Below are positions 1,417-21,265 of a stretch of DNA of 24,522 nt, piece after piece. The position numbers and the translations under genes are program-made. Every line of letters begins with the position of its first letter. The first letter of the stretch is position 1. The notes beneath the pieces were generated by a model. The model saw only the letters and a program-made list of their open reading frames with translations. It did not search any database and had not been told where the DNA came from. Origin of the DNA: a virus; IMG/VR virus record IMGVR_UViG_3300045950_000093, positions 1 to 24,522 of that record; one strand, 5' to 3'.

Positions 1417-1698
1417 CTACTGCCTGACCTGGGCGATGGTGAACGGGCCTGGAGTGGACGGAACCACCCAGGACTCGCGCCAAGCGCCAGGCGAATAAAC
1501 TACCGTGTACGTGCCTGGGACCAAGCTCACTCGGATGCGGCCTGCGACCACCGGTACCGTCAGCCGGCCAGCAGCGATTGTGAAGCCGTCAGGTGAGGCC
1601 CCGGCGTTCCAGGTGATCTCCAGAGATCCCTTGGGGACGGCAGCGCCATCTGCGCCCTGTACGACATCGTCAATCACGCGCAGTGCAGGTCCAGGCAT
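1417..1698 (-). CDS. Small beta-rich protein, last gene of the tail cluster
   Basis: The product has 93 residues, starting at ATG 1698, which overlaps the TAA of the large tail gene (TAATG). The sequence alternates short hydrophobic strands (SLEITWNAG, GFTIAAGRLTVPVVAGRIRV, YTVVYSPG), suggesting a single beta-sandwich or immunoglobulin-like domain. There is no signal peptide, membrane segment or catalytic motif. As the final gene of the late operon, next to the large tail protein, it is most likely a tail-tip accessory or fibre-tip module. I do not recognise the family. No convincing terminator follows it before the repeats at 1288-1352. Confidence 0.7.
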   Translation of the reverse strand: MPGPALRVIDDVVQGADGAAVPKGSLEITWNAGASPDGFTIAAGRLTVPVVAGRIRVSLVPGTYTVVYSPGAWRESWVVPSTPGPFTIAQVRQ

Positions 1699-4600
1699 TA
1701 CGCCACAAGCCTTCCTCTCCGCCCCGCTTCCGGCAAAGGTAGAGCCAATCCTTTGAGTGTGAAGTGATCCCACGCCCAAAGCGAAACTTTCAGACCTAGC
1801 CCGCGCGCGGCAATCAACTCGCGCTCGTAGACTGCGCTCGCCGATAACACAGGCAGGTTGTACCAGAGGTCGGCGGACGACCAAGCGCGCGGCGGCGTCA
1901 TCGGGAAGCGCATCGCCTCGATGGCTTTGGCCAGGTTGTGCTCGAACGCACCGAACGACAGCGCCTCCATCTTGAACGTGTCGAGGCCGCTTCCAGCTTT
2001 CTGCCAGAAGGCCGGCGGCAAGTTCACGTACAGAGAAAGCTGCTGGTCGTCGCGATTTACGTCGCGTGCCCAGAGCAATTCGAACTTGGCGCTTGGGTGC
2101 GACGCCAGGACGTGCGCGCGGATCGCGTCCACATGAGCCTGGAGGCGAGCGCGCAGAAAGTCGGCATCAGCGTATCCGTTCACAGCCGGTGAATCGTTGA
2201 GGGTTGCGAAGACCTGGAGAGCCCGGCCGAGCGCCGCTTGCGCCGCAGCTGTCGTGTCAGAGTCATAGAACGCCGTCTTTTGATTCACGTCCCCTTGCGC
2301 GTACCACCAGAGGAACTCACCGAACTGAAGCCAGATGCCCAGTCCCGCCGCGTTCATCAGATCCGCCAAGTATCGGTAGACGCGCTTGTGATACGCGAGG
2401 ATCGTGGATGAGAACGTGCAGTGCGTGCCGTTGAAGCCTGGAACCACCTGAAAAGTGGCTTGATCGTTATTCGCGTAGCGAGACGCCCACACCTGGCCAC
2501 CGCCTGGGTCCTCAGGCGGGTTCGTCATGTCGAAGGAGAAAGTGGACACGACCTCGATCCCATAGGCGCGCGCCGCTGAGAAGAAGTCCGCATGCCACGA
2601 CCGCGCGGCCAAGTCGAATACGGGATCGGCGGCTGCATCGATCACGTAGGTGCCGAGCGAGCGCGTTGCGCTCGCGCTCATGTCCCCACTCACGGAGACC
2701 GTTCCGGCCGCGCTCGTCTTGGCCGTGCTCAGGTCCACAATGTCCACGGGCGACCGGACGGTGATCGTGAGTACAGCGCCGGCCACGCTTGCCCAACACG
2801 CCGTGAAGACGGCGTTGATCGCGCCCGCCAACTGCTCCGCGATGCTGTTGAGCGTGTCGGCGGCAACGACGGTCTTGGTGATCGACGTAGCGCCAAAGGT
2901 AAGCGTCACTGTGTCGCCGTCCGCCCAGGTCCCACCAAACGTCACCACGGATTGCGGGAAGATTCCGTTGATCCGCACCCTCTGCGCGTAGAACAGGATG
3001 CCAACGAAGTGGTTGATGCGTCCACGCAGGCCGGAGCGATGAATCTGCCACACCAACCGCTCGGGTGGGAGTCGATACGAGTGATCGGTGTCGTAGTCTG
3101 TGGCCACGGCCACGTCAGAGTAGATGACTTCAGGATCAGGTACGTCGGCCTCGACCACTGCGTCCAGAAAGTCGAAGTGCATGATGCCGGCACTGGCCAG
3201 CGTCACCTCCACGTTGTGCTTGCCCGCCGCCAGGCCGCTGCGGATCTTCCGGCGCGCCCAGCCATCGCCGTTCGCGGCGTCGAGCGTAGTGGGTGCGTCG
3301 CCATCAACGGAAATAGCGTACACTCCATGCCCCGCGCCAAGGATCGTGCCGAGCCATAGATCATGCGCATACTGGCACCAGATCGTGATGGTGACCTTTG
3401 CCCCGATTTGCGATGTCGAACGGCCGTAGCCGCGATAGAAGCCGTTCGAGGCTTCCTCCGTCCACACGCCGCTGTACACCGCCCACCGGCTGCGTGATCC
3501 CACACGCACGGATTTCTTTGGGTCCGCGATCTTCAGAGTGCGGAAGCCATTGGGATCAGTAACTGTGATGTTCGAGAACCTGGCTGTCCATTCGGTGTTC
3601 GAGTAAGCTCCGCTATCGACCAAGCGTGGAGCCAAGGTCAGCCACATGCGCCTGATCTGCGTGATGTCCAGCGCTGAGAAGTCGAGCCGAATGCGCCAAG
3701 TGACCTCGGAATTCCCGCCGGCGAGCTTCACCGACGCCTGGGAGCATTTCAGGTTGTCGTTCTTATGCCGCTCGAACACGGTCACCATGTTGCCGTCGTA
3801 CCCGCCGCGCGGCGCCAGGTAGTTGACGCTGCCTTGTCCAGGAGCTGCGGGCGCGATCAGCAACTCGGTGGGGCTGTTCACTTGCGTGACCGTGTAATCC
3901 ACGCCGGCGATGCGAATCGCATCGCCGCCCGTCAGCCCGCTGAACCTCTCCCCTGAAATCCATGTCACCAAGTTGTCGAGCGTGTCCACCTTTCCGTAGC
4001 GTGCCGCTTTCAGGTTCAGGTTGTTGCCATTCCGGTCGGCACGCAAGGCGACCGGTGCGCCGATTCCGTTCCAGTTGGCGTCGTTGATCGCAGTCGCGAA
4101 CCACTTCACTACCGTCGAGAGTGTCACGCCGTAGAGTGTCTGTGTCCCACCCTCGGCCGTTGACGAGATCACGAAGCTCCCGCCGTCGTCTTTGCGGCGG
4201 TCAAGATCCACCTGGTGCGTAGGCACGCCCTGCGCCGCGACCACGTAGGGATCGCCTGCGCCGGCGTTAATCGCGCCGACCAGTGCCACAGCGACAGCCG
4301 CACTCGTATCGCCGGACTGCTCCGTGTACTCGTAGTTGACGCCTGCGACCGTGATGCGGTGAACCGTCCCCGGTGTGCCGGCGAAGAACTGGTAGGAGTG
4401 CTTCACTTTGGGCACGATGTAGTCCCACCCGATGCCCAGATAGAAAAGCGTGACGCGGTCGAACTGCGCGACGCCCTCCGCGCCTTCGGTGAACGTCAGC
4501 GTGCCAGCTGCTGCCGGCCACGATCCAAAGTTCACCAGGGTCGCGTAGTCCCACAAACGGATCTTGAATGCTGTGCCATCCGCCTTCAGCACGTTCAGGT

Positions 4601-4910
4601 AGGGCCAGTCAATCCAAGGAAATTTCGGAGACTCAATTGGCTGGAGGTCGTCGTAGAGCAGATCGAACTCCAGCACCATGCCCGCGAAATCGAAGTGCGG
4701 AAGCCATTTCCAGCGTGGGTGTCCGAAGTAGTCGTCCGCGTCGTAGAGGATCACTTCGGCTTTGTCGACACGGTCGCGGAAAACGCCGCTGACGCTGAAG
4801 GCGTTCTCGCTCGTCGAGTGGATCGCCGCTGTGAGCGTGGCGCTCAAAGGAGACACACCCAGATGGACCGTGCGGCGCGGATCGAACTTACGAAGCTGCT
4901 CGACGGCCAT
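1698..4910 (-). CDS. Large tail protein with probable TIM-barrel C-terminal domain
   Basis: The product has 1070 residues. The open frame extends upstream, but ATG 4910 (MAVEQLRKFD) is chosen because it overlaps the ASCH gene stop in a TGATG junction. Two similar beta modules are visible: residues about 180-225 (TVHRITVAGVNYEY then AVALVGAINAG) and about 660-710 (VTLTFGATSITKTV then AEQLAGAINAV). Both are the type of small repeated domain common in phage tail proteins. From about residue 765 the sequence looks like a (beta/alpha)8 barrel, with WHADFFSAARAYGIEVVSTF, LGIWLQFGEFLWWY, FELLWARDVN and LKVSLWAWDHF as strand ends rich in aromatic and acidic residues. This could be a glycan-binding or glycan-cleaving tail domain, or the barrel of the non-contractile tail sheath protein family. 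Catalytic residues cannot be assigned. It is probably the host-recognition end of the tail. Confidence 0.75.
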   Translation of the reverse strand: MAVEQLRKFDPRRTVHLGVSPLSATLTAAIHSTSENAFSVSGVFRDRVDKAEVILYDADDYFGHPRWKWLPHFDFAGMVLEFDLLYDDLQPIESPKFPWIDWPYLNVLKADGTAFKIRLWDYATLVNFGSWPAAAGTLTFTEGAEGVAQFDRVTLFYLGIGWDYIVPKVKHSYQFFAGTPGTVHRITVAGVNYEYTEQSGDTSAAVAVALVGAINAGAGDPYVVAAQGVPTHQVDLDRRKDDGGSFVISSTAEGGTQTLYGVTLSTVVKWFATAINDANWNGIGAPVALRADRNGNNLNLKAARYGKVDTLDNLVTWISGERFSGLTGGDAIRIAGVDYTVTQVNSPTELLIAPAAPGQGSVNYLAPRGGYDGNMVTVFERHKNDNLKCSQASVKLAGGNSEVTWRIRLDFSALDITQIRRMWLTLAPRLVDSGAYSNTEWTARFSNITVTDPNGFRTLKIADPKKSVRVGSRSRWAVYSGVWTEEASNGFYRGYGRSTSQIGAKVTITIWCQYAHDLWLGTILGAGHGVYAISVDGDAPTTLDAANGDGWARRKIRSGLAAGKHNVEVTLASAGIMHFDFLDAVVEADVPDPEVIYSDVAVATDYDTDHSYRLPPERLVWQIHRSGLRGRINHFVGILFYAQRVRINGIFPQSVVTFGGTWADGDTVTLTFGATSITKTVVAADTLNSIAEQLAGAINAVFTACWASVAGAVLTITVRSPVDIVDLSTAKTSAAGTVSVSGDMSASATRSLGTYVIDAAADPVFDLAARSWHADFFSAARAYGIEVVSTFSFDMTNPPEDPGGGQVWASRYANNDQATFQVVPGFNGTHCTFSSTILAYHKRVYRYLADLMNAAGLGIWLQFGEFLWWYAQGDVNQKTAFYDSDTTAAAQAALGRALQVFATLNDSPAVNGYADADFLRARLQAHVDAIRAHVLASHPSAKFELLWARDVNRDDQQLSLYVNLPPAFWQKAGSGLDTFKMEALSFGAFEHNLAKAIEAMRFPMTPPRAWSSADLWYNLPVLSASAVYERELIAARGLGLKVSLWAWDHFTLKGLALPLPEAGRRGRLVA

Positions 4911-5314
4911 CAGGCAGCCTCCTGCGGCCGCGCCCACTCCCACAGCCAGAGATAGCCGCGCGCCTGGATTGGCGGATCTATCAACCGAGGGTTGCGAAAG
5001 ACCCACGCGAAACGGCCGGGACCATAGTTGCCGAATTCGAGCTCGCGCTGGTCGATGCTGGCGACGATATCCTCGGTCGACACGCAGTCCACCAGGTCCA
5101 CAGTGCAGATAACAAGGCCTAGCGGCAACCAACCCTTGTGCCAGTAGTGGAACGTCGGTGCGGCGGCGAGATCCTGGCACCAGACTGGGAATGCCCGCGC
5201 GGCATGAATGGCCAGCGGTCCCCGATAGCGCGTGCACCACGACCGTGTTTCAATCGACTTCGCGCCCAGGGCGACAAGCGAAGCCCACGGCTGAGTCATG
5301 GTCAGGGCCTTCAT
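4910..5314 (-). CDS. ASCH-domain protein
   Basis: The product has 134 residues and is a single ASCH (PUA-like beta barrel) domain. The N-terminus MKALTMTQPWASLVALGAKS followed by IETRSWCTRYRGPLAIHAA (residues 21-39) carries the family features: QPWA at 8-11, a G-x-K at 17-19, E22-x-R24, and the RYRGPL-IHA strand. The C-terminus PIQARGYLWLWEW also fits. ASCH domains bind RNA or modified nucleosides, and some members hydrolyse N4-acylated cytidines; which applies here is unknown. It overlaps both neighbours by TGATG junctions, so it is co-translated with tail genes although it has no obvious structural role. It may be an accessory gene acting on host RNA or nucleotides. Confidence 0.85.
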   Translation of the reverse strand: MKALTMTQPWASLVALGAKSIETRSWCTRYRGPLAIHAARAFPVWCQDLAAAPTFHYWHKGWLPLGLVICTVDLVDCVSTEDIVASIDQRELEFGNYGPGRFAWVFRNPRLIDPPIQARGYLWLWEWARPQEAA

Positions 5315-8702: not shown

Positions 8703-9139
8703 GCCGCTACTCCGTGGAAACGCGCCAGCACCTGGCTGGGCCCGGCGGGCGCGAGCGCGTCGGGCAAGACGCGGAACCGGAACGATTCGCTGTAGCGCTG
8801 CAAGCCGACGCGCTTCGGCTGGAACTTCTTGCCCTCAGCGACGCAGTGGTACTGCTCGTTGATGTCGCTGTTGGGGTAGAAGTCGAACTGCCCTCCGGCC
8901 AGCGCAAACTGCATGAACAAGTCCCACGCGTTCACCGCCGCCAGGTCCATCGCCGGCATGGTGAACTCGATCATCAGGTCCAGGTTCTCGACCACGCGCT
9001 CACGGGCCTGGCCGCCCGTTGCCAGATTGTCGTGGAGGCGGCCTTCGGTGTAGCAAGTGAAGTTCTGGGGTCCGTTCACGAACTGGAGGACGACGGCAGA
9101 AGAACCAGCCGGCGTGTAGACGATCTTCGGCAGGCCCAT
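8699..9139 (-). CDS. Distal tail (Dit-like) minor protein
   Basis: The product has 146 residues. It begins at ATG 9139, overlapping the tape-measure stop (TGATG), with GGAG 8 bases upstream; GTG at 9142 is an equally in-frame alternative. The protein is beta-rich (VVLQFVNGPQNFTCYTEGRL, LDLMIEFTMPAMDL, GGQFDFYPNSD) and has no membrane segment. The gene directly after the tape measure usually encodes the distal tail protein, the ring to which the tip attaches, and the beta-sandwich-like sequence fits. The family was not recognised with certainty. Confidence 0.7.
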   Translation of the reverse strand: MGLPKIVYTPAGSSAVVLQFVNGPQNFTCYTEGRLHDNLATGGQARERVVENLDLMIEFTMPAMDLAAVNAWDLFMQFALAGGQFDFYPNSDINEQYHCVAEGKKFQPKRVGLQRYSESFRFRVLPDALAPAGPSQVLARFHGVAA

Positions 9140-10899
9140 CACCGCGTCTCCTGGCCGCTGCGGCGCACGCTGGTCGCGATCAGGCGGACGTCGCGGTCGC
9201 GCACCGCCTCGTTGATGATGTCTGTCATCTCCTCGATGCCGGCCCGGCCGATAACATGCCCCTGGATGATCACCGTTACCCCGCCGCGCGGCCTGTCGCT
9301 CGCCGATCCGCCGCCGTCAGCAGGCAGCCCCCCGACCAGTCCAACCGGCGTCGCACTGACGCCGCCGCCTGTGCGCGGCGGCGCAATTGCGCGGCCCGCC
9401 ACAGCGGCTGCCCCGCCGACAGCGCCGAATATCGCGGCCGAGGTAAACGCCTCCCCTGCGGCCTTGAAATTGAAGTGCGCCAAGTGCCAGAACCCCAGAG
9501 CTGTGGCGTAGATCGCGCGGACAAACGCTTCGGCAGCCAGCGATGCAAGTACCGCAGCGGTGGCTTGGCGCATCGCGTCGGTGATGGAGCCGCGGTATAC
9601 GATGGCCATGGCGATCGCCTGGCCCAGAGCCTGGTTCAGCGCCAGTAAGCCGCCGCGCATCAGGTTCGTGGACTTGAGCCAAGCGTCGGCGGCCGCGCTG
9701 GGGGCGCTGACCGCAGCCGCTTCCCACTCCATCATTTCCCGCAGCGATTGGCTGAGCGCCGGGCTGAGGATCTCCGTTAGCGGGCGGCGAAATCCTTCCA
9801 TCGCTTTCGCCGCCGACTTCTGCATCTCCTGCTCGAACTCAGCCAGGTCGTCGAGGTACTCCTCCATCCGCGCAAACTCTTCATCGCGGATCAGCCTCTC
9901 GAATCGCTCTGCGGGCGTCAGGAGCGACGGTGCGGGGCGTTCCGGAACAGCAGGGACGAATACAAAGGGTGTCGCCTTTTCAGCAGCCGCAGCGAAGGTC
10001 CTGCCCGCGCCTTCCGCCGCGGACTCGGCGGCCTTGATGCGCTTCTCCAGGTCGGCCCACAGCAAGGCGAACTGCGCGCCGATGTCCGCGCCGACCGTCC
10101 ACACACTGGTCTGGCCGGTGATGAAGTTCTTGGCGGCAATGGCAGCGGCTTCCATCAGGACGATGAAGCTGCTCAGCTTGGGCAACACCTTTTGGCCCAC
10201 CTGGAGCACCATGGCGTCCCATTGGGCGTTCAGGTGCTGCAATTCCATCGTGAACTGCTTGGCGGCGACGATGTCGTGGTCGGTGAGGACCAGGCCGAGT
10301 TCCTCGGCGCGGCGGGTGAATTCGCGAATGCCCTCGCTGCCCCGATTCAGGAAGTCAATCAGTTCCGCCCCGCCGCGCGAGAACAGTTCGCGAGCGATGC
10401 GCGCCTTGGCCGTCGCGTCTCCCGATGAGCGAAAGGCATCGGAGACGCGCAGCAGCATCCGCTCCATGTCGCCGCCAGAGTGCACCAGGTCTTGCTGGCT
10501 GATCCCGAGCCGCTCGAACGTGGCGACCTGCTCCGTCGAGCCGCTGCGCGCACGATCAATAGCGGCAGCGAAGAAGATGAGGGAATTGCCCAGGAGGTCT
10601 TGATCGACGCCGAGCTGGCGCGACGCGAAGCTCAGCCGGGACGCCGCTTCCGCAGAGAGGCCAGTTTTGTCCGCTAGCGCGTCGATGTTGTCGGCGTAGT
10701 CGGCCGCCTTATTGGCCGCCGCAACGAGAGCGCCCACGACGGCCGTGGCTCCGGCTGCAGCCGCGCCGGCCCACACGGAGAAATCAGCCTTCAACGACGC
10801 AAGACTGCCGGACAGCAGCTCGCGGAAGCGGTTGAGCGCGCCCGCGGCTTCGTTGGCGTCCGCGCCGATCTTGAAGAGGAGTTCGGAAGTCTCAGCCAT
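9139..10899 (-). CDS. Tape measure protein
   Basis: The product has 586 residues. ATG 10899 overlaps the end of the chaperone T extension (stop at 10892-10894). The opening ELLFKIGADANEAAGALNRF and the following small-residue hydrophobic segment (about 42-62, VWAGAAAAGATAVVGALVAA) are characteristic, as are the long Ala-rich helices and the hydrophobic patch at about 485-515 (FTSAAIFGAVGGAAAVAGRA). The motif AADYADNIDALADKTGLSAE (65-84) is typical of tape measures. The protein sets tail length and occupies the tube lumen. At roughly 0.15 nm per residue this would give a tail somewhat under 90 nm, an estimate only. No lysozyme or peptidase domain is seen. Confidence 0.92.
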   Translation of the reverse strand: MAETSELLFKIGADANEAAGALNRFRELLSGSLASLKADFSVWAGAAAAGATAVVGALVAAANKAADYADNIDALADKTGLSAEAASRLSFASRQLGVDQDLLGNSLIFFAAAIDRARSGSTEQVATFERLGISQQDLVHSGGDMERMLLRVSDAFRSSGDATAKARIARELFSRGGAELIDFLNRGSEGIREFTRRAEELGLVLTDHDIVAAKQFTMELQHLNAQWDAMVLQVGQKVLPKLSSFIVLMEAAAIAAKNFITGQTSVWTVGADIGAQFALLWADLEKRIKAAESAAEGAGRTFAAAAEKATPFVFVPAVPERPAPSLLTPAERFERLIRDEEFARMEEYLDDLAEFEQEMQKSAAKAMEGFRRPLTEILSPALSQSLREMMEWEAAAVSAPSAAADAWLKSTNLMRGGLLALNQALGQAIAMAIVYRGSITDAMRQATAAVLASLAAEAFVRAIYATALGFWHLAHFNFKAAGEAFTSAAIFGAVGGAAAVAGRAIAPPRTGGGVSATPVGLVGGLPADGGGSASDRPRGGVTVIIQGHVIGRAGIEEMTDIINEAVRDRDVRLIATSVRRSGQETR

Positions 10900-11056
10900 G
10901 TTCTTCGTACTCGCTCAACGCTTCCTGTTGGATCTCCCGCAGCCGCCGCGCGGCGGCCAGGTCAAAGTTCGCCGCCAGCACCGGGTCCCCGATGGACAAC
11001 AGACTGGATGGGCGCAGGTGGAACGCCTCCGCCGTTAACACCAGGGCGTCCATCTG
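10892..11056 (-). CDS. Tail assembly chaperone, T extension reached by frameshift
   Basis: This open stretch codes for 54 residues after the shift and has no ribosome binding site or convincing start of its own. The peptide QMDALVLTAEAFHLRPSSLL followed by SIGDPVLAANFDLAAARRLREI resembles the C-terminal T domain of GT-type chaperones, in which a LLGI-D-x-AxxxDxA pattern recurs. Joined to the G part it gives a product of about 179 residues. The T domain binds the tape measure during tail assembly in well-studied siphophages. It sits exactly between the G frame and the tape-measure start, as expected. Confidence 0.75.
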   Translation of the reverse strand, partial: QMDALVLTAEAFHLRPSSLLSIGDPVLAANFDLAAARRLREIQQEALSEYEEHG

Positions 11057-11432
11057 GGGGCTGGCCACGAAAGGACTCGAGTTGCTGCGCCTCCTCGATC
11101 CGCAGCGCCCAATGCACGATGAACTGCGCATCCTCCCACGGAATGTCCTTCGGATGCACCTCGCCCTCCGCAGGAGTGAGAGAGATGCGCGGTTCCAGGC
11201 AGCACCAGACCAGCAGGTCGCGGTGCAGCCGCGCGATCTGCTCAACGTCCTGCGCCGTGATCCGCTCCGGAGCGATGCCGCCGACGAGCGACGCCGGCAT
11301 GACTCCCCAGGTGGCGAGCTGCAACGGGTCGGGCCGGCGCGCCTTGATGACGATGCCGCTCGGGAGGGTGAGATCCACGGCCGCCGCCAGCGCGGCGGTG
11401 CTCTGCTTCGCGATCCAATCGTGAGCCTTCAT
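10962..11432 (-). CDS. Tail assembly chaperone, short (G) form
   Basis: The short product has 156 residues from ATG 11432, with GGGGGA about 6 bases upstream and a 17-base gap after the tail tube stop. Residues 1-124 form an ordered domain (AALAAAVDLTLPSGIVIKA, ARLHRDLLVWCCLEPRISLT). After the C-run the frame encodes a low-complexity Gly/Pro tail (GVNGGGVPPAPIQS) that ends at TGA 10962, as is usual for the non-shifted product. Gene position between tail tube and tape measure, and the overlapping second frame, support a G/GT-type chaperone that coats the tape measure while the tube polymerises. Confidence 0.8.
   Translation of the reverse strand: MKAHDWIAKQSTAALAAAVDLTLPSGIVIKARRPDPLQLATWGVMPASLVGGIAPERITAQDVEQIARLHRDLLVWCCLEPRISLTPAEGEVHPKDIPWEDAQFIVHWALRIEEAQQLESFRGQPPDGRPGVNGGGVPPAPIQSVVHRGPGAGGEL
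11055..11063 (-). promoter_or_regulatory. Probable programmed frameshift site (C5 run)
   Basis: On the minus strand the G frame reads GGC CAG CCC CCA GAT GGA. The T frame continues as CAG ATG GAC after CCC. Entering it needs a +1 slip of the proline tRNA on CCC, or a -2 slip on CCA. The five C residues are at 11060-11056. Tail-chaperone genes of most siphophages use -1, and a -2 shift has been reported for Mu. The direction here cannot be told from sequence alone. Confidence 0.6.
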
Positions 11433-11449: not shown

Positions 11450-12052
11450 TTACGTCGTCTCGTAGAGAATGCCGATGTTTCGCCCGGCGGTGCGGGTGGG
11501 ATCGGCCAGGCCCTTCACCTTGAGTTGGTACTTGCTCGGCGATTTCCGACCCAGCGGGAAGGCCACGGAAGCCTCGAAGATCGCGGAATAGAGGACGCAG
11601 ACGTGGGCCTTGGTCGCGTCGTTTCGTTTCGGCGCGATGACAGCAAATGCGACCTTCGCCGGCAGGTTGAGACCCCCAAAGGTATTCTGCTTGTAGCCGG
11701 CTGCTGTCGAGTACACCGACAGGCCGGCCAGGATCTGCTGGATCTTCGTCGCCTCGAGTTGCTTGAGATCCGCTTCGACCATCATCTCCTCCTCGGTGAC
11801 GAACTGGTCGAGGACGCCGGCGAACTGGTCGGCGCGGATGTCTTCCTTCTTCGCGGCCATCGTCACTTTGGTGTCGCCGTCGATCAGGCCCAGATGCACT
11901 GAGGCCGGGTGCGTGGTCGCATCCGGGGTCAACGTGGCGGCATCGAGCGTGAGCCGTTGCGTGGCGTCGCTCGGCGGCGAACCGATGATCCACAGGTCGC
12001 ACGGACCCTGCATGATCTCGGTTACCGAGTAAGCCTTAGCTGTTGCGGGCAT
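11450..12052 (-). CDS. Major tail tube protein
   Basis: The product has 200 residues from ATG 12052, preceded by GGAGGAGA in the end of the upstream 49-residue gene, which it overlaps by 17 bases. The sequence is beta-rich with features of siphovirus tube proteins: an opening Ala/Ser stretch and GPCDLWIIG strand, the GLIDGDTKVTMAAKKEDIRA segment, a central helix (EEMMVEADLKQLEATKIQQI), and the late strands KAHVCVLYSAIFEASVAF and YQLKVKGLADP. The position directly before the chaperone and tape measure is diagnostic. It polymerises into hexameric rings that form the non-contractile tail. No tail sheath gene is present beside it. Confidence 0.82.
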   Translation of the reverse strand: MPATAKAYSVTEIMQGPCDLWIIGSPPSDATQRLTLDAATLTPDATTHPASVHLGLIDGDTKVTMAAKKEDIRADQFAGVLDQFVTEEEMMVEADLKQLEATKIQQILAGLSVYSTAAGYKQNTFGGLNLPAKVAFAVIAPKRNDATKAHVCVLYSAIFEASVAFPLGRKSPSKYQLKVKGLADPTRTAGRNIGILYETT

Positions 12053-18050: not shown

Positions 18051-19106
18051 TCAGTTCTTCCCGCGTTGAATCGCCAGCTTGCGGCGCACCAGGTCGGCGT
18101 TCTCGCTGGCCACGAGTTTCAACGCCTCGCCGTAATCCTTCACGCCGCCCTGCATCTTGGCCTTGACCTTCTGGTCGATCTCGGCCTCGACGCGCTGCAG
18201 CTCGGTCAACTGCGTGGCTTCCTCGCCGGTTCCCGCGATGCCGCGCTCGTTGAGGTCCACCTTCGGGGCCGACTTGTCGATGATCGACTTGACGCTCTCG
18301 AACCCACCGTCGCTGAGGGCCAGCTTCAGATAGTCCTCGCGGTTGGCGGGTAGGACCTTGCCGTCCTTCACCGCCTGATCGATGAGCGCGATGGCGCGTT
18401 CCTGGTTGTGGCGTCCGACGAAGACATCGGAGGCGTACACCACGTCGTCGCCGGTGGGCATCTTCGCGAAGTCGTACAGGCCCTTCGCGTCGCGAGGCAC
18501 GTCGGTGAGACGCACCACGCGAGGCTGCTTCTCTTGCGCTTGCTCTTGCGTTGCGGTATTGCTCACGGGTTGCTCCTTCTCCCCGCCGTGCGGGGTTTCA
18601 CTTGCACTCTGCCAGCCCGCTTCCGAAAGCTGGATCGCGGGCATGGCGTCGAAAAACGGCGTGTTGGTGACGGCCAGGCTGCGCAGCGTCGTGCCCTGGT
18701 CCTCGCCTGTCTTCTTGTCGTGTGCACCCCAGTAGATGACCGGCGAGAGGTATTTCAGCTCGCCGGCCTCGATCATCTTTCGGCAGCGTTCGTTCAATTC
18801 GGCCAGACCCCACCAAATGCCTCGCTCGTCCGGCTTGTCCTCGACCTGCTTCAACCAGCCGGCTGCGGGAATGGGCTGCCCCTGCGCGACTTCGGGGAAC
18901 TCGCTGGCGTGCTCGTAATCGATCACCGTGTCGCCCTCGCGTTTGCGGAAGTTCGCGACCATTGCGGCGATGTCTTGCAGCGTGACGGCGAACTTCTGCG
19001 CGCCCTTGACCCAGCGCCCGATCATCGCCAGCGGGATGCGGACCAAACCCTCGGCAAACGTGAGCGCGCTCAGATTGACGACAAAGATGCGGTCCCGGTC
19101 TTTCAT
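18051..19106 (-). CDS. Mu I-like prohead protease and scaffold
   Basis: The product has 351 residues. ATG 19106 is chosen over the upstream frame because it overlaps the portal stop (ATGA) and follows AGGAGA. The protease domain covers residues 1-160: DYEHAS (63-68, catalytic His66), YLSPVI (119-124, Ser121) and LAVTNTPFF (144-152) are the Mu I-protein motifs. The next 30 residues are a Glu/Gln-rich linker. The C-terminal half (about 190-351) is helical, ending in LTELQRVEAEIDQKVKAKMQ, as expected of a scaffold segment; in Mu the scaffold Z is made from an internal start in the same frame. It directs capsid assembly and is then removed by self-cleavage. Confidence 0.88.
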   Translation of the reverse strand: MKDRDRIFVVNLSALTFAEGLVRIPLAMIGRWVKGAQKFAVTLQDIAAMVANFRKREGDTVIDYEHASEFPEVAQGQPIPAAGWLKQVEDKPDERGIWWGLAELNERCRKMIEAGELKYLSPVIYWGAHDKKTGEDQGTTLRSLAVTNTPFFDAMPAIQLSEAGWQSASETPHGGEKEQPVSNTATQEQAQEKQPRVVRLTDVPRDAKGLYDFAKMPTGDDVVYASDVFVGRHNQERAIALIDQAVKDGKVLPANREDYLKLALSDGGFESVKSIIDKSAPKVDLNERGIAGTGEEATQLTELQRVEAEIDQKVKAKMQGGVKDYGEALKLVASENADLVRRKLAIQRGKN

Positions 19107-21265
19107 GCGGCTCTCCTGTCTTCTCTGGCTTCGTCGGCAAACACGTAGACGTGGACGCAGCGGCATTTCGCGCCGCCCAGGCAGTCCGGGTTCGGGACGT
19201 CGGGGATCTCGTCCGGTGTCTTTGCGGTTCGTCCATCCGCCTGCTGGCATGGCTCGCAAACATTCGCGTCGAGGATCGCCGAGTACTGGACCTCGGCAAT
19301 ATCATCGGCGTACTGCTCATACCCCGCCTGGCGGCCGTCTGCGAAGGCTTCGTTGGCGGCTTCGGCGGCGATACCGTCCACCCACTTATCCGATTGCTCG
19401 TCGAGCAGGTCCTCGGTGCGGCGGATGATCTCGCCCCGGGTGATCTCGTCGTCGCCGGCGGCGCGGCGCTTCTGGTCGGCCACGATGTTGGCGGCCCGCG
19501 CCGTCAGGTTGTTGACGAACTTTGAGACCGTGGCATCCGCGTAGACGCCCAACGGATTGCGCTTGGCCGCGCCCGTAAACCGCAGGTCCGGTGCCTCCGC
19601 CGGAGCTTTGCCGGCGCGCTGCCGGCGGCGTTCCTGGCTGACCTGGCCGCGCCCGAATTGCGCCACGTCGTCGAGCACCTTCTCGATCCCGGCGATCAGC
19701 CGGGTATCCGGGGCGACCGACACGCGGTGCAGCTCGCGGATCGGCGCGGCCGCCAGACGCGACACCACCTCCGCCTGGATGCGCGACCTGGCCTTCCGCA
19801 TCGCCGCAGCGATCTCATCGCGGCCGCGGTCGAGCTCCGAGACGATCTCATCGAGCGCCAGGTATCGCTCGTAGCCCCGCGCCGCTCTGCGTTCCGACCC
19901 TCTGAATCTGCGTTCATCTGCGGGGGTGCCCGACGCGTTCAGCGTTGGGCCCTGTGGTTGCGGTTTCCGTTCCGGCGCGCCGAGCTTCTGCCGCAGCCAC
20001 GCCTCCAGATCCTCATCCGGCTGGACGGCCCCCGCGCCGGCGAGCCTCTGGAGTGCACTCACAATTGCCTCGAGCTTGAGCGCTAGAACCTGCGCTGCGA
20101 CCAGCCGCGGCGGCCGCACTTGCTCACCGAAGTTGAGCGTCACGATCCGCCGGATCGTAGTCGCGTTGAAGACTCCGGCGATGTTCTCCGCCGTCGCCTG
20201 CAGCGACAACATGAAGAAGTCGCCTAGCGACTCGCCGAGCGCGCGGTTCCCGGTCTGCGACTGGCCGAGCATCATGAACTGCGCCAGCGCGGCGAGCGAA
20301 ATCTGCACCTTGTGGTGCAGGATCAGGTCTTTCGGATCGCGCGTGGTTCCGGTGACGCCCTCCAGCTTGAAACTCCATTCGGGCGGCAACACCAGCGCCG
20401 CCTTCTCGTGCGTCGAGAGCTTCTGCAACCAGTCAATGGCCGTCTTGCGGTCCTCGGCCTTGGGATTGGGTCCCATCACGACGACAGGCACGCCCAGGCC
20501 GTTGCGCTCGGCTGCAATCGCCGCGATCTTTTCGAGCGCTTGCAACATGTACCAGTGTTTGTAGGCAGGCCGCAGCATCGAGCGGCCCGCGAAGTTGTCG
20601 CCTTCCTGCTGGTGCACGAACAGAGACAGCTTGGTCGCCGGAACCTGGACCGTGAGATATTGCCCGGCCCGATAGCCCTGCTGCTCAAGAGCCTGGAGTT
20701 CTCCGAGATCGTTGACGATCCAGCGGTAGAAGGTCTGGGGCAGGCGCGGCGCGAGCTTGCGCAGGCGCACGCGATTGCCGTCGACCTGGTAGACGTCCTC
20801 GTGCGCGGACGAGCCGAAGTCGAGCATCAGCAGCGCGTTCTCGAGCGCTTTCTTGAAATCGACGCACTCCCACAGGCACTCCTTCACCAGCTCCACAGCC
20901 TCTTCTTCGACCGGCGTGGGATCGGGCGGCGGAACTATCTGCCAGTCCGCGCCGCGGATCGGCAGCTTGACGGCCAACAAGGTCGCGGCGACCTGTGCGT
21001 CCGATCTCCGCATCTCCTCGTACACGCGATAGGCGGAGAGGCCGCTGAGCGTGGCGTTGTACTCGCCCAGGTCCCGCAAGAACCCGCCGAGGACGGGCGT
21101 CCCCGTGACACCCAGTTCCGACTCGACAAACGCACGGTCCACGGGAGGCGGAGCTTGCTTGTCCACTCCGAGCCAGCGCTGGATGGCGCCTGCAAGGCTA
21201 AAGCGCTCGCGCTGGATGGCGCCTGCAAGGCTAAAGCGCTCGCGCTGGATGGCGTCGCGGATCAA
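19103..21265 (-). CDS. Portal protein (Mu gp29-like, DUF935) fused to MuF-type domain
   Basis: The product has 720 residues. The start is TTG 21265, supported by GGAGG 7 bases upstream and a 4-base TTGA overlap with the terminase stop. Residues about 50-440 are a DUF935 portal: YNATLSGLSAYRVYEEMRRS, DAQVAATLLAVKLPIRGADW, FVHQQEGDNFAGRSMLRPAY, NGLGVPVVVMG, SQTGNRALGESLGDFF. Residues about 500-705 are a Mu F/SPP1 gp7-type head morphogenesis domain, with YSAILDANVCEPCQQADGRT (661-680), C695 and CRC at 701-703 as its Cys pattern. Mu encodes these as two separate genes. The fused product would form the dodecameric vertex and bring the ejected MuF part with it. An in-frame tandem repeat lies at residues 5-26. 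Confidence 0.88.
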   Translation of the reverse strand: MIRDAIQRERFSLAGAIQRERFSLAGAIQRWLGVDKQAPPPVDRAFVESELGVTGTPVLGGFLRDLGEYNATLSGLSAYRVYEEMRRSDAQVAATLLAVKLPIRGADWQIVPPPDPTPVEEEAVELVKECLWECVDFKKALENALLMLDFGSSAHEDVYQVDGNRVRLRKLAPRLPQTFYRWIVNDLGELQALEQQGYRAGQYLTVQVPATKLSLFVHQQEGDNFAGRSMLRPAYKHWYMLQALEKIAAIAAERNGLGVPVVVMGPNPKAEDRKTAIDWLQKLSTHEKAALVLPPEWSFKLEGVTGTTRDPKDLILHHKVQISLAALAQFMMLGQSQTGNRALGESLGDFFMLSLQATAENIAGVFNATTIRRIVTLNFGEQVRPPRLVAAQVLALKLEAIVSALQRLAGAGAVQPDEDLEAWLRQKLGAPERKPQPQGPTLNASGTPADERRFRGSERRAARGYERYLALDEIVSELDRGRDEIAAAMRKARSRIQAEVVSRLAAAPIRELHRVSVAPDTRLIAGIEKVLDDVAQFGRGQVSQERRRQRAGKAPAEAPDLRFTGAAKRNPLGVYADATVSKFVNNLTARAANIVADQKRRAAGDDEITRGEIIRRTEDLLDEQSDKWVDGIAAEAANEAFADGRQAGYEQYADDIAEVQYSAILDANVCEPCQQADGRTAKTPDEIPDVPNPDCLGGAKCRCVHVYVFADEAREDRRAA
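21176..21254. repeat. 33-bp in-frame tandem repeat at the portal N-terminus
   Basis: Units at 21176-21208 and 21209-21241 are identical; a third, partial unit continues to 21254. On the minus strand each encodes AIQRERFSLAG, so the portal begins with MIRD, two copies of this peptide, and then AIQRWLGVDK. Removing both units would leave the natural-looking start MIRDAIQRWLGVDK. The length (33) keeps the frame. It may be a recent duplication or an inserted repetitive element. Confidence 0.9.

Follow-up and report, generated by a model that had tools for sequence, protein, structure and literature searches.

How is the second of two overlapping frames, lying between the tail tube and tape measure genes of a soil phage, reached by the ribosome? 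Tail chaperone frameshifts are common, and those needing +1 or -2 are often without a defined site. The window, which is the whole 24,522-base stretch of an IMG/VR record analysed here, carries a Mu-type head module and tail genes on the minus strand, comprising a terminase, portal, major head protein, neck protein, tube-like protein, G/T and tape measure (Table 1). An initial annotation had proposed a programmed frameshift in a tail chaperone G/GT gene, with a run of five C as the slip site. The +1-type frame change was borne out by our comparisons and the slip site was not. Judged from the sequences of relatives, it is highly likely that G and T form one gene, in which programmed +1 frameshifting at UCC_UUU_CGU (11075-11067) would make a G-T chaperone.

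Table 1 Features of the window discussed in the text.
Feature	Position	Strand	Basis
Tape measure protein	9139..10899	-	Several tape measure PHROGs, best named E=5e-25
T, +1-frame extension (TTC GTG GCC ... TGA), 59 aa counted from the slip codon	10892..11071	-	T protein kept in +1 relation
Predicted GT fusion, 179 aa if TTTC is read as a single Phe	10892..11432	-	Translation
G, predicted tail assembly chaperone, 0-frame, 156 aa	10962..11432	-	Translation, tube/tape measure position, fold search
C5 run, proposed earlier as slip site; not conserved	11056..11060	-	Alignment of relatives
Predicted +1 slip site TCC_TTT_CGT, E/P/A codons; TTT at 11072-11070	11067..11075	-	Conservation in relatives
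Tail tube-like protein	11450..12052	-	phrog_885 major tail protein E=0.005; phrog_2175 Ig-domain protein E=2e-11
Mu-type portal protein, query for relatives	19103..21265	-	PF06074 E=4e-52; phrog_113

G starts at an ATG (11432-11430) preceded by AGAAGGGGGACGGC and stops at a TGA (10964-10962). The T frame is open from 11428 to a TGA at 10894-10892 and includes FHLRPSSLLSIGDPVLAANF, and its codons are +1 relative to G, or equivalently -2; coordinates and translation thus confirm the two overlapping frames and their +1 or -2 relation. The ATG of the tape measure gene (10899-10897) overlaps the 3' end of T. The location of G/T between the tail tube and tape measure genes, and a conserved T protein that overlaps the end of G without a conserved start, are as expected for a chaperone G/GT gene. 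At 65% GC, a long open T frame is weak evidence by itself, and what raises it above chance is that every relative in which both parts were found has a conserved T protein at +1 to G. Elsewhere in the window, the C-terminus of the portal ORF contains a MuF-like stretch (PF04233, residues 614-704, below the Pfam cut-off), which suggests a portal-MuF fusion. A 1180-aa ORF at 1698-5240 matched phrog_6040, of unknown function, in three stretches (E=2e-34) and weakly matched tail sheath and tail assembly families; it is perhaps a tail tip protein.

In viral contigs, no relatives were returned by protein searches that used only G, the tube protein or the tape measure protein as query. With the portal protein, 8 loci were found in viral contigs, and the G/T region was present on three of those contigs (L002, L004 and L003), that of L003 being located further along the same contig and entered as L018. 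Further searches gave 49 loci with the portal alignment and 7 with the G/T alignment, and a profile search, covering 48 further records, identified G/T in 21. These 21, the window and the three first relatives make up the first set of 25 contigs, 24 of them distinct at the site. In bacterial and archaeal genomes the portal search yielded 19 loci, spread over 18 genomes. Apart from one Sumerlaeota MAG, these bear the labels Acidobacteria, Acidobacteriia, Acidobacteriaceae or Terriglobia, which points to Acidobacteriota as the most likely host lineage, subject to the general uncertainty of binning. The G/T alignment A2 recovered only already known viral contigs and had no match in genomes. G/T matches were observed in 14 of the 18 portal-positive genomes and in 2 of the 27 remaining viral records, and the second set, mostly Acidobacteriota MAGs, contained 18 loci with a G/T match, both parts being matched in 16. 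Rows left out were L127, at a contig end, L149, which has ACC_TTT_CGC but lacks a T match, and the duplicates L073 and L152; L125 was retained as an exception, and in L069 and L132, with two in-frame TTT_C each, the last one was used.

Among annotated phages, tblastn with the window G, P0007 (L004) and the L080, L085, L087 and L078 type proteins found no relatives, and the L083 type protein had one match, MW202444. The annotation of that record treats T as a hypothetical gene apart from G (L099:3506-3679), and the internal start given for it removes the conserved first part. Two of the first relatives each carry two tandem tail tube-like genes (L002:11019-12236 and L004:8172-9383) with 39-43% identity to the window tube protein. 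The portal frame at L004:1003-3102 has an in-frame stop within its tblastn-matched span, for which an interruption, a frame artefact or an assembly error are all possible.

In the first set, each of the 24 distinct loci has TTT_C at the junction, as TTT_CGT in 20 and TTT_CCT in 4. TTT, the following C and a T at the sixth base were each invariant (24/24), the fifth base was G in 20 and C in 4, and no other column within 36 nt of the site rose above 1.59 bits in these loci. The site had been found by seeking in-frame TTTC, and the test was repeated over all in-frame tetramers in the regions open in both frames (doubly open regions): TTT_C alone was present in 24/24, and the GC-rich GAGG and GGCG reached 23. 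The hexamer TTTCGT occurred in 20 of the 24 doubly open regions, the next best hexamer in 10. In these GC-rich phages TTT is the less used Phe codon, at 29% pooled over 24 contigs; TTT_CGT codon pairs number 9 in 118,124 codons, and 3,900 upstream G-frame codons contain TTT_C 10 times and TTT_C[GC][TC] 0 times, chance figures for the site that ignore phylogeny and shared descent.

The second set gave the same picture, with T in +1 in 16/16 loci and TTT_C in the doubly open region in 15/16. The exception, L125 (G061:C566), has TTT_TGT instead of TTT_CGT, a change that is silent in the T frame and keeps its Phe-Val; UUU_U could still re-pair and slip. The 39 distinct loci with TTT_C, which form 15 clusters at 60% DNA identity, comprise 29 with CGT, 6 with CCT and 4 with CGC. 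A UUU_CGN sequence is thus found in the 0 frame within the overlap in the window (11072-11067) and, with CGT or CGC, in 33 of the 39, and the downstream frame is +1 in all loci with both parts. MW202444 (L099), an annotated circular phage record from spring water, has TTT_CCT, and its T opens 14 nt before. In the 39 loci the shortest distance from the opening of T to the slip is 14 nt, and that from the slip to the G stop is 9 nt, so that a shared site must fall within this corridor.

The C5 run is present where it had been described and is in frame in the window, and +1 slips at CCC are known from phage tail and capsid genes, namely in SPP1 (PMC6316719) and Listeria PSA (PMC5009743) according to the available parts of these papers. 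A proline tRNA slipping +1 at CAG_CCC_CCA, at least in the window phage, is nevertheless very unlikely. Runs of at least five C were observed in the doubly open regions of 2 of the 24 distinct loci, and at that place in the window only (1/24); the initial annotation had suggested looking for the run in relatives, and the aligned relatives keep TTTCGT, not the C5 run. The conserved TTT_C lies 12 nt upstream of the run. Between the two, the T frame of the window encodes FVAS, to which FVAS, FVAG and FVMG correspond in relatives. Because these residues are conserved, +1 decoding starts before the run, and together with the limits of the corridor they place the shift at TTT_C.

The same frames could be joined by -2 frameshifting somewhere within the overlap, as in phage Mu, whose gpGT uses -2 (PMC3498833 and PMC5009743, in the portions available). 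Some actinophage records annotate a joined product, and the lengths given in the structure library are divided on this point: those of the actinophages Madruga (273 aa) and MrMiyagi (363 aa) fit a -2 join, +1 giving 272 and 362, whereas that of Wollypog (263 aa) fits +1, and the direction of frameshifting therefore looks unsettled among annotators. The corridor holds no conserved G or C run. Three of the 24 doubly open regions do contain runs of at least five G, lying 50 to 117 nt 3' of the site in every case, and a conserved slippery run of the Mu type was not found. Since UUU_C allows complete re-pairing of tRNA-Phe forward to UUC and not two bases back, the -2 option lacks both a site and support, and we regard it as very improbable.

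A third explanation, that T has a start of its own as an independent gene or that a sequencing error splits the frames, we consider extremely unlikely. In some records (Predator, MW202444) T is indeed a CDS in its own right that begins internally, but these annotated starts cut away conserved T residues. The statement that T lacks start signals of its own held in the main: the window has in-frame candidates (TTG 173 nt and ATG 59 nt upstream of the slip, and GTG at +4), none of which is conserved across loci, and the GGAGG before the ATG directly abuts it. In 22 of the 39 distinct loci the T frame had no start codon preceded by an SD-like word at a workable spacing. An error is disfavoured because T stands at +1 in each relative for which both parts were matched.

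For the identity of G we turned to its fold. PHROG and Pfam searches returned no family at significance for G/T, and a fold search of the PDB with the G model (mean pLDDT 74, built from 7 sequences) gave chance matches only. Against BFVD, four of the six matches at E<=0.001 were named tail assembly chaperones (Predator, Madruga, Hawkeye and Wollypog). The modelled G thus resembles known tail assembly chaperones, to which it would be related by fold only.

The named actinophage chaperones extend the comparison to cultured phages. Those of Predator, Madruga, Wollypog and MrMiyagi are like the window G in fold (E 5e-6 to 9e-3) and in their +1 frame, with TTT_CGC at the junction, whereas a tblastn search of that phage collection with the window G found nothing. 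Predator has ACC_TTT_CGC with gp29 in +1. Related records numbered 90 for Predator and 94 for Kurnik, and 13 phages were chosen for diversity: Predator, Damien, Labelle, Sadboi, Madruga, SirHarley, Kurnik, MrMiyagi, Madi, Aikoy, DrLupo, Hiddenleaf and Wollypog. T was in +1 in 13/13, and TTT_C was located in the doubly open region in 12/13, ten with CGC and two with CGT (Kurnik and Hiddenleaf); Labelle and Madruga are 99% alike at the site, and counting them once gives 11/12. The exception is the Mycobacterium phage Aikoy (L166), which has no TTT_C in its doubly open region and whose T frame opens at TTG AAA AGT (AAA_A, G offset 697); from this sequence, a slip at AAA_A may replace UUU_C in Aikoy's genus. 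The site therefore recurs in cultured phages of Mycobacterium, Gordonia and Micrococcus and in relatives in Acidobacteria. The actinophage annotation tables examined do not name a slip site.

For the slip itself, its direction and rate, and the role of the products in assembly, we infer the following course. A peptidyl-tRNA-Phe (anticodon GAA) would sit on UUU in the P site with CGU waiting in the A site, and a minority of ribosomes would move one base forward, the tRNA re-pairing with UUC at all three positions and exchanging a wobble pair for a full pair. A single tRNA-Phe generally serves both UUU and UUC. Decoding would then continue with GUG GCC AGC in the T frame, yielding much G and some GT. 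By analogy with lambda gpG and gpGT, G would bind the tape measure and T would recruit the tube protein. Among possible stimulators, SD-like words upstream, comparable to that of prfB, were present in 16/39 loci against 19% of background positions, a weak excess, and no RNA structure was detected 3' of the site in the 39 loci (mean z -0.27, 3/39 below -2). CGT is uncommon and not extreme (12% of Arg codons), and a cause of A-site slowness for CGU, CGC or CCU is not evident.

A single conserved motif serves annotators as a rule and replaces loose '+1 or -2' annotations by one site that can be tested in laboratory phages; for work on recoding it provides naturally occurring +1 sites for bacterial ribosomes. 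An influenza-type site becomes open to study in safe laboratory phages such as Predator and MrMiyagi on Mycobacterium smegmatis, and the variants CGT, CGC, CCT, TGT and, in Aikoy, AAA_A can inform the contribution of the A-site codon. We see even odds that UUU_C with GY or CU after it is an ancient +1 signal, retained widely in the tail chaperone genes of bacterial and archaeal tailed viruses and used independently by eukaryotic RNA viruses. On that reading, independent use would follow because one tRNA-Phe (GAA) reads UUU and UUC, and the CCU form would mean that codons other than those for arginine can occupy the A site and that a UUU_CGN rule is too narrow.

Compared with known systems, the window is like lambda in that a single start, in a gene flanked by those for tube and tape measure, would give rise to two proteins (PMC5009743, available text), and it differs in its direction, lambda using -1, Mu -2 and the window +1 without a long homopolymer run. 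D3112 and B3, which the initial annotation had put forward as comparators, share the Mu-type head genes and siphovirus tails, and both have T in the -1 frame, a relation not found in the window set; for the D3112 group, T_TTT_TTC with -1 has been proposed (PMC4378225, in the part available). The available text on PRFect (PMC10885494) holds that forward shifts have as yet no general motif, and PRFect's own forward motif of three equal bases would in principle admit TTT. Our literature search, which covered few subscription papers, returned no report in which UUU_C is named for the tail chaperone gene of a bacterial phage, nor is it named in the accessible portions of PMC3711429, PMC8211752, PMC2628397, PMC3483164, PMC6588377 and PMC8785237.

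The closest likenesses are to viruses of eukaryotes and archaea. Influenza A PA-X has UCC_UUU_CGU, nine bases identical to those of the window, with the same proposed P-site slip from UUU to UUC, and its +1 shift was shown by mass spectrometry and peptide data (PMC3498833, as far as its available text goes). The same P-site slip has been proposed for UUU_CGN in amalgaviruses, in a paper whose available part states that one tRNA-Phe reads UUU and UUC in plants (PMC5052127). Both differ from the window in their eukaryotic ribosomes and unrelated genes, the likeness being one of mechanism, not descent. In haloviruses of the HF1 group, +1 at TTT-CGC was suggested for the tail chaperone genes of six genomes (PMC7230728, available text); as in the window, G/T lies between tube and tape measure, +1 is needed and TTT_CGC is near the G stop, and our check of HF2 found AAG_TTT_CGC_AGA_TAG with T in +1. 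These are archaeal myoviruses, whereas the loci described here are many, belong to bacterial phages with Mu-type head genes or to actinophages, and use CGT and CCT as A-site codons too. The kind of site is thus already known, since UUU_CGN was suggested earlier for the tail chaperone gene of HF1-group archaeal viruses, and what the present comparisons contribute is its bacterial extent, the exact PA-X nonamer in the window and the CCT form.
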